Source: Gilliamella sp. Pas-s25 (GTDB lineage: Bacteria > Pseudomonadota > Gammaproteobacteria > Enterobacterales > Orbaceae). From it: a DNA stretch of 64,000 bases. A program made the position numbers and the translations under genes. Below are positions 5,501 to 42,863 of the stretch, one piece after another; position 1 is the stretch's first letter, and each line of letters opens with the position of its first letter. Below the pieces are notes generated by a model. It saw only the letters and a list, made by a program, of their open reading frames with translations. It ran no database searches and had not been told where the DNA came from. The stretch is from NCBI RefSeq assembly GCF_009795885.1, contig NZ_WTEV01000013.1, positions 1 through 64,000 of the forward strand. The letters are read 5' to 3'.

Positions 5501-6430
5501 CGGCCAAGGCGATATGGCGGTTGGATGATTATGCGTTTCCACTTTCATTAAAATATCCGCATATTCTTGATGATAACCGTAGGTTTTATTCTCATTATCT
5601 GCAAAAAAGCGCCCAACGATTGAGCCATCCATTACAGCGGCATTATCCTTATAAGCAGACGAAACATAATCAGGAGTGTGTTCAAAAGTATTTTTGATCA
5701 TCTTAAACAGTGATTTAGGCTGCTTTACCCCATCAATAATCCAATCAGCATTAAAAATCTTATGGCGACAATGCTCTGAGTTGGCTTGCGCAAACATATA
5801 AAGTTCAATATCTGTCGGATTACGATTTAATTTTTTAAAATTTTCAACTAAATAATCAATCTCATCAGATGCTAACGCTAAACCTAATTTTAGGTTAGCC
5901 TCTTCTAACGCCTTGCGCCCTTGGCCTAATAAATCAACGGTTGTCACAGGCGTTGGAGACTCAACGTAGAATAGCTGCTCGGCTTGCTCAACACGACTAA
6001 AAACAGCTTCCATCATGCGATCGTGAATCAATGATAAAAAATCATTTTTTTGTGAATTGATTAATGGCGAACTCACTTGCACATAATAAGCGATTCCCCG
6101 CTCAATACGGCGAATCTGCGACAAGCCACAATTATGCGCAATGTCGGTCGCTTTTGACGACCAAGGCGAAATCGTTCCAGCTCTTGGAGTAACTAAAAAA
6201 AGTTGCTGGCTGGATGTCTCTTTGATATCGATTTGTGCGGTTTTAGGACCGTATTGCAATAATTTATCTAGCGTTAACTGTTGTTCGTCCGTCAATTTAT
6301 CAGCCAAATCAACAAAATGAATATATTGTGCTTCAATATCAATAACAGGAATGGATTGTTCACGGCAAACAGATAGGATTTTACTAATACGAAATGCAGA
6401 TAAAGCAGAACAGCCAGCTAAAATTTTCAT
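2528..6430 (-). CDS. purL: Phosphoribosylformylglycinamidine synthase (single-chain)
   Basis: Converts FGAR, glutamine and ATP to FGAM, the fourth step of de novo purine synthesis. At 1300 residues it is the large single-chain form of gammaproteobacteria: a PurS-like N-terminal region, tandem PurM-like ATP-grasp-independent synthetase domains (for example [20 protein letters not shown] and GGGAASSM), and a C-terminal class I glutamine amidotransferase with nucleophile motif [10 protein letters not shown] and HPERVFR. The start is set at 6430 ([13 protein letters not shown]), matching enteric PurL and preceded by AAAGAG. The upstream in-frame ATG at 6457 gives an unconserved nine-residue extension. 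Single gene, convergent with aroF. Confidence 0.97.
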
Positions 6431-41151: not shown

Positions 41152-41413
41152 ACATTAAGGTATTTTCTAAAGGACTTTAGTTATGTAGTTGATTTTATTT
41201 TTGATAAAAGAGTAAATATTTCAATCCATTGAAGCTTTTCATGAAACTTAATCAAAGTCACACTTAAATAATTTTTACCAAAACTCGGCAAAGAACTAGC
41301 TAAGTTTTTTCTAAAAGGTTATAATTTCGCCAATTTCAAGGAGTAGCTCATTTAATAAACGGATATGTAAAAAGTTTAAATAAAACAATTAAATGCTTTG
41401 CAGGTGAACCGTA

Positions 41414-42496
41414 ATGTACTACTATATCAAGCATCAGAAAACCTATGCATTAAATTTACCCAATAATCCCATTAGACGAGTTTTTACACGAATTTCGATT
41501 ATATCTTCGAAGTTATCTCATAAATTATTATCGAAATTATTCCGAAAAGTCTCGCTGGTGTTGGTATCGTTATTATTGTCGTATTCATGGGGGGGGACAG
41601 CATTACCTGCTAACAGTAGGCGAGTAAGCAATCGGAGTGATGCCATAATACTACCGTCGTTACCATTAGAAGTCATCAAATTCGTAAGGCCAGTTATTAA
41701 ATATGGCACAGACGAGTACGCCGGCCCCGCTGATATATGGAATCCAGATTATGGATTCTTAGTCCAATCAACCAATCCGGCATCATACGCGCTTAATTTT
41801 CCAACTACGGGGGCTGATGGATTATATTTTGATTTAATCATAATCGGAGAAGAAAGCGACTTGACATGGGAGGTGCCACCTAAATATGATGGAATTGCGG
41901 TCACCGTGGCGAGAAGACCAATATTTAATAGCGATGGAGATGCAGAATTTCGCGTTACGCTAAAAGGTCCACATGCAGGAGGATCTCGAATAAACAGCTC
42001 TCATCCTAGTAGCATTACCGCGCCTATCTTACCTCATACCTTTGAATTAGTGGGTAAAAATAGAAGTGGTGAAGAGATCGTAAGATATGGATTTGTGTTA
42101 CAGAAGTGGTTTGTCAACCGTGGACGTAAATTCGATACTTTTCAAAATCAAGAATCTTGGTGTAGTAGTTTGGGTTATCGTATGGTACAGGTTAAGGACC
42201 TAACTAATTCAGCCTGTCGTGGTCCTAGCGCAGGTCTCCATTGCAGAGGGGTTATTAGCGCCACACCACTCTCAACTGGTAATCATTACCAGCGTCAAAT
42301 AGGGGCTGGTTTTGCCGCGGAGTGGGGAGATACGGGGATTTACACCCGCGCGGGCTTTGAGAACCACTTCTACTGGACAAGTGACTCTGCTGGAGGTGAC
42401 TACCAGTTCACTGTGTTCATGGGCGGCGGTTATATTCGTAACCACAGTACTTTGCCGCATAACACTCATTACTATGGGCTTTGCACCACTCCTTAG
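41414..42496 (+). CDS. Exported protein with C-terminal variable lectin-like (FGE/DUF1566-type) domain
   Basis: 360 residues. A basic N-terminal region of about 43 residues precedes a hydrophobic segment (SLVLVSLLLSY), so it is exported or membrane-tethered. The middle is beta-rich. From about residue 235, WFVNRG, a Cys-rich WCSSLGYRMVQVKDLTN, GFAAEWG, FYWTSDSAGG and a C-terminal YYGLC resemble Fib_succ_major/DUF1566 and formylglycine-enzyme-like C-type-lectin folds. The last 180 bases are about 53% GC by hand count, much richer than the gene's start, and C-ending codons dominate (14 of 20 Asn/Asp/His/Tyr/Phe codons). That is a signature seen in DGR variable regions. AGGTGA precedes the ATG. 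Confidence 0.75.
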   Translation: MYYYIKHQKTYALNLPNNPIRRVFTRISIISSKLSHKLLSKLFRKVSLVLVSLLLSYSWGGTALPANSRRVSNRSDAIILPSLPLEVIKFVRPVIKYGTDEYAGPADIWNPDYGFLVQSTNPASYALNFPTTGADGLYFDLIIIGEESDLTWEVPPKYDGIAVTVARRPIFNSDGDAEFRVTLKGPHAGGSRINSSHPSSITAPILPHTFELVGKNRSGEEIVRYGFVLQKWFVNRGRKFDTFQNQESWCSSLGYRMVQVKDLTNSACRGPSAGLHCRGVISATPLSTGNHYQRQIGAGFAAEWGDTGIYTRAGFENHFYWTSDSAGGDYQFTVFMGGGYIRNHSTLPHNTHYYGLCTTP

Positions 42497-42863
42497 TATT
42501 TGATGCCTAGTCCTTAATCCTTAGTAGTGTGCGAAGCTTATGGTGCAAATAAAGAACAATCCATCCAAGAACCAAATCTACTGCGCATTAAGTGGGGCCT
42601 TGAGCTGGCAGAGCATGCAAGTTTATGTTTTTGCAAATGGACAGCAAAAGCGCTTTCCCAAAATAAAAACAAGTTCCCCCAAATATTAATTATTATACTC
42701 AAACACATAGTTACCTGAAACTTTTTGACAAAAATTTTAGTTTTTTCAGCAAAAGTATAATGTAGGTGATAGTTATATTTTTTTAGCGTTAGTTATACCT
42801 TTATTCGATAAAAAAACCAGACATACGTCTGGTTTTTCTGCTTGTTTTTTATAGCAGTAATAT
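42497..42863. other. Intergenic region downstream of the lectin-like gene
   Basis: A 367-base gap. The first ~150 bases are less AT-rich and contain a 63-codon open frame with no recognisable features. I looked for an A-rich near-copy of the lectin gene's 3' end (a DGR template repeat) on both strands and found none. Ends with a strong terminator. Confidence 0.6.
42812..42837. terminator. Bidirectional terminator, lectin-like gene / gyrB
   Basis: An 11-bp stem AAAAACCAGAC/GTCTGGTTTTT with loop ATAC, A-run on one side and T-run on the other, between convergent genes. 27 bases beyond the gyrB stop. Confidence 0.88.

Follow-up and report, generated by a model that had tools for sequence, protein, structure and literature searches.

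Diversity-generating retroelements (DGRs) whose targets lie away from the cassette have been described in two settings that resemble the one examined here. In Treponema denticola the targets are remote, and isolates retain target genes after loss of the reverse transcriptase (RT) and template (PMC4891356); in cyanobacteria, C-terminal variable domains occur in genome-dispersed paralogues tied to the template (PMC7517822). By these descriptions, Gilliamella is like T. denticola in having remote targets that outlive the cassette, and differs from it in having about 25–40 family members per genome and a template fossil. It shares with the cyanobacteria its dispersed paralogues with C-terminal variable domains, whereas the cyanobacterial targets, taken from a survey of complete cassettes only, seem tied to signalling and transcriptional control (PMC7517822).

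The Gilliamella RT has its nearest named relatives on plasmids of Yersinia, Vibrio and Shewanella (45–55% identity). For Yersinia hibernica pCFS1934 and Shewanella baltica pSBAL11703, whose RTs are 44–55% identical to it, mismatches between template and variable region fall at 19/40 and 16/41 adenines, respectively, versus 1/92 and 0/95 other positions, and these plasmid systems are DGRs. In both, as in Gilliamella, the template adjoins the RT on the opposite strand; the Yersinia system carries a small accessory gene homologous to that of Gilliamella, the Shewanella system carries an Avd homolog 37% identical to G. bombicola Avd, and the Yersinia target aligns to the Gilliamella target family (hhalign 98%, E 1.5e-13). 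Both differ in lying on plasmids and in having a target that adjoins its cassette, whereas the Gilliamella targets are dispersed by dozens and the cassette is mostly lost. The product of the small accessory gene, a 168-aa protein of unassigned family (L178:10842-11345 in G. bombicola), is shared with the plasmid DGRs, and relatives of it directly adjoin several Gilliamella targets.

Neither remote targets nor targets that survive the loss of their cassette are without precedent; of interest here are the scale of the family and its possible phase variation. Our literature search, outside which most subscription papers fell, found no paper linking DGRs with Gilliamella or describing one in bee-gut symbionts. 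We analyzed a stretch of 64,000 nucleotides (the window) from the draft assembly of Gilliamella sp. Pas-s25 (2.81 Mb, 109 contigs) and conclude that positions 42329-42487 are very probably the variable region of an orphaned DGR target. In the mechanism that we propose, one Gilliamella DGR, consisting of Avd, an RT and an adenine-rich template, would have rewritten dozens of dispersed secreted-protein paralogues at their 3′ ends: reverse transcription of the template RNA would introduce errors at adenines, and the resulting cDNA, presumably retrohoming in trans, would replace the 3′ end of the target, turning AAC and AAT codons into NNC and NNT. In Gilliamella we find the cassette and its template, the family of targets, and variation focused on adenines.

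The window gene and its family

Table 1. Features of the window gene, with positions counted from the first base of the window
Feature	Position	Strand	Basis
DGR target-family gene, 360 aa (stop included)	41414..42496	+	Open frame; about 40 paralogues in the same genome; profile homology to the Yersinia target
Shine-Dalgarno-like AGGTGA and in-frame ATG, heptamer array absent in this copy	41402..41416	+	Sequence read directly; comparison with 5′ ends of the family
Long secretion-signal-like N-terminus, putative hydrophobic core at about aa 47–62	41414..41611	+	Judged by eye; conservation across the family
Conserved body of the family	41696..42328	+	Alignment; 55–60% identity to best paralogues across the whole protein
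Probable variable region with homology to the DGR template (NMNNYADAGFVNNNYWTSD...)	42329..42487	+	Codon-level alignment with the template of G. bombicola

The window gene (Table 1) is the single family member found within the 64-kb stretch. An initial annotation had read its 3′ end as a possible DGR target on the grounds of base composition and codon endings, and both observations hold. GC content reaches 0.52–0.54 at 42200-42499 versus 0.36–0.45 in the remainder of the gene (200-base windows), or 0.53 in the last 62 codons versus about 0.43, and Asn, Asp, His, Tyr and Phe codons end in C in 14/20 cases in the C-terminal stretch versus 15/62 elsewhere in the gene (Fisher p=0.00036). The annotation had also remarked that the window contains no DGR-type RT, Avd or template, and our search of the window confirmed this.

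The same genome has 49 stretches matching the window protein, which correspond to 39 open frames under the family profile, fragments included. At E 1e-20, matches were found in 28 of the 35 genus genomes searched, with a maximum of 40 per genome. The copies are dispersed and also occur in tandem, and their proteins combine a long secretion-signal-like start and a conserved body with a variable tip on a fixed scaffold (YWTSD...F.V...G.V...GLC). Close copies have common bodies and C-termini that differ mostly at the first two bases of NNC codons, and the 3′ flanks after the variable region look conserved in the listed sequences.

The match to FGE/DUF1566-type lectin folds that had been suggested finds no direct support, as the window protein matches no Pfam, NCBIfam or PHROG model. 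Other family members give sub-threshold matches to Lcl_C (0.05–0.1) and Intimin_C (0.34), a PDB profile search with the family found nothing, and a single-sequence AlphaFold fold of a target is poor (pLDDT 38). We infer a ligand-binding, lectin-like fold for the C-terminal domain, and the family proteins are presumably surface-exposed.

Intact, broken and fossil cassettes

This DGR RT was found in just 3 of the 44 genomes of the bacterial family (5 genera), all three in Gilliamella: G. bombicola R-53248, Gilliamella sp. Choc5-1 and Pas-s25 itself. The G. bombicola cassette is intact and consists of Avd, a DGR-type RT (RVT_1 E 4e-21; PHROG RT E 3e-81; motifs GIPIGSASSQ and YMDD by sequence reading) and an adenine-rich template. 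Avd matches the PHROG "Avd protein of DGR" at E 2e-8 and NCBIfam DivGenRetAVD at E 1.2e-4, the latter under the curated cut-off. The template (L178:10642-10494) lies directly downstream of the RT on the opposite strand, is noncoding and AAC-rich, and reads NMNNYADAGFVNNNYWTSDATGSNGFNVNSNNGNVNSNSASNGRYGLCA. In Choc5-1, Avd is accompanied by an RT open frame that ends prematurely at the site of a transposase gene. A further remnant is present in the genus-mate genome G010, where the leader and the beginning of the template persist over about 240 bases, the template reading NMNNYTAAGFINNNY, and then give way to unrelated sequence; neither RT nor Avd was found in that genome.

In Pas-s25, Avd is intact (C63:33629-34045) and the RT is a fragment (C63:34037-34387) truncated after about 117 aa, at which point the cassette homology stops and a paralogue follows. 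A search of this genome found no template and no second DGR-type RT or Avd; an active DGR requires an intact RT and a template, neither of which was found. With the RT truncated and the template not found, the targets of this genome are orphaned; with the cassette so decayed, diversification has stopped, and the repertoire is largely frozen. The earlier suggestion of a cassette acting at a distance therefore fits the past of this genome and not its present, and the genome search that had been proposed recovers a DGR-type RT in truncated form and no near-copy template.

A strong hairpin (GGGTTGCGCTATTGTGGC...GCCACAATAGCGCAACCC) is present at L250 ~6318-6420 (on the same Pas-s25 contig, C63), where the RT homology ends. 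Three RVT_1 matches in Pas-s25 were ruled out as DGR RTs, being group II intron maturases with HNH domains. A retron-type RT (PADLOC RT_VI) adjoining a helix-turn-helix-like gene in genome G027 (L082) was likewise set aside as a DGR candidate.

Adenine-focused variation

The signature is strongest in paralogues and genus-mates of the window gene. The tips of five Pas-s25 paralogues have GC contents of 0.58–0.69, with third-position GC of 0.77–0.86, and the bodies of three of the five are 87–90% identical. Against the G. bombicola template these tips differ at 115/225 adenines (51%) and 94/510 other positions (18%) (p=1e-18; p-values here assume independent sites and overstate certainty because related sequences have a common history), and they retain the third base of 64/75 AAY codons. 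The G. bombicola targets compared with their own template differ at 564/1102 adenines (51%) versus 654/2525 other positions (26%; OR 3.0). For G010, the fossil template compared with its own 25 sampled variable regions gives 192/417 (46%) at adenines and 42/759 (5.5%) at other bases (OR 14.6, p=4e-61); in these tips, too, the differences lie mainly in the first two bases of a codon and the third is retained. The lone template AAT has become NNT in 24/25, and neighbouring AAC codons have become NNC. GC-biased conversion or foreign high-GC DNA was ruled out as the source of the GC-rich tips, as third bases follow template AAC or AAT. Some template adenines, in TAC, ACG and GAC codons, are unchanged in nearly all targets, and selection or incomplete mutagenesis is needed to account for them.

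Between species, with one genome compared per species, the pair G000_L035_m_4661 and G007_L156 has bodies 91.7% identical and differs at 31/45 template adenines versus 8/102 other positions (OR 26). Several other targets are near-identical between species, and the ortholog pair G000_L033 and G007_L147 is frozen, with 1/45 and 1/102 differences. In the control genomes G004, G014 and G016 the same sites vary, with third-base differences of 47–55% at non-adenine sites versus 7% in the five Pas-s25 paralogues. Because many members in these three genomes have no adenine signature, family membership alone does not prove diversification.

The window gene itself mismatches the template of the other species, G. 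bombicola, at 26/45 adenines (58%) versus 39/102 other bases (38%), p=0.032; its own template having been lost, it is not being matched to its true source. The run AAC CAC TTC TAC TGG ACA AGT GAC corresponds to AAC AAC AAC TAC TGG ACG AGT GAC in the template, and ACT stands at template AAT. The adenine bias that the initial annotation had predicted among paralogues is thus strong in the five and slight in the gene for which it was proposed (p=0.03). Judging from its sequence, the window gene appears to be an older, drifted family member whose signature has partly eroded, and is a weak DGR example in comparison with its paralogues and genus-mates. The DGR reading is right for the family, given the adenine-rich template, DGR-type RT and Avd of the genus and the variable ends that differ at template adenines; it probably holds for the window gene, and the machinery is broken in its genome.

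The slight bias is also what favours treating the window gene as an ordinary member of the secreted family, its tip varied by duplication and positive selection and its GC content inherited or due to chance, with the DGR having hit other paralogues only. The control-genome members that vary at the same sites with unconserved third bases, and the ortholog pair frozen between species, point the same way. We consider this unlikely, though worth keeping in mind, given the C-ending codons (14/20), the template-like run and the ACT at template AAT.

That a complete DGR still acts in Pas-s25 from a place absent in the 109-contig draft, such as a plasmid, would agree with the draft state of the assembly, the plasmid location of the RT relatives and the still intact Avd. 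It is nevertheless a distinctly improbable account, as a second DGR-type RT, Avd or template was not found in the genome sequence searched and several targets are almost unchanged between species. The variable ends might also have been shuffled without reverse transcription, through gene conversion between paralogues or from donor cassettes. Such an account could draw on dozens of dispersed and tandem paralogues but is barely credible, since conversion would neither confine differences to template adenines (31/45 versus 8/102) nor retain third bases (AAT to NNT in 24/25), and the template has a separate noncoding locus beside RT and Avd.

Heptamer arrays and possible phase variation

Aside from its variable tips, the family has a second potentially variable feature. 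Most members carry a 7-base tandem array directly after a conserved Shine-Dalgarno sequence and ATG (e.g., L032, L034 and L036 in Pas-s25, L123 in G010, L132 in G016 and L168 in G. bombicola). The ATG is in frame with none or one copy, out of frame with 3 or 12, and in frame again with 4 (n=2 members), a pattern in which the number of heptamers determines the start-codon frame and which suggests translational phase variation. An array almost always has exactly 3 copies, which leaves the ATG out of frame, also in the single-contig genomes G004 and G016; this uniformity is unexpected for free slippage and may be genuine or may reflect a collapse in the assembly. Arrays of 12 copies are present in L053, where the array is next to N, and in L155.

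We tentatively propose, at somewhat less than even confidence, two layered diversity systems, in which the DGR would have rewritten the tips in trans and the heptamers would switch genes on and off, most species having then lost the DGR and kept a frozen, switchable repertoire. Some 25–40 diversified secreted proteins per genome would give a gut symbiont, in this case one whose host is simple and tractable, a large repertoire for recognition, and the intact, broken and fossil cassettes across species make it possible to ask what hypermutation gains and what follows its loss. Many members also have a promoter-like pair, TTGACA-N17-TATCAT/TATAAT, overlapping the ATG region.
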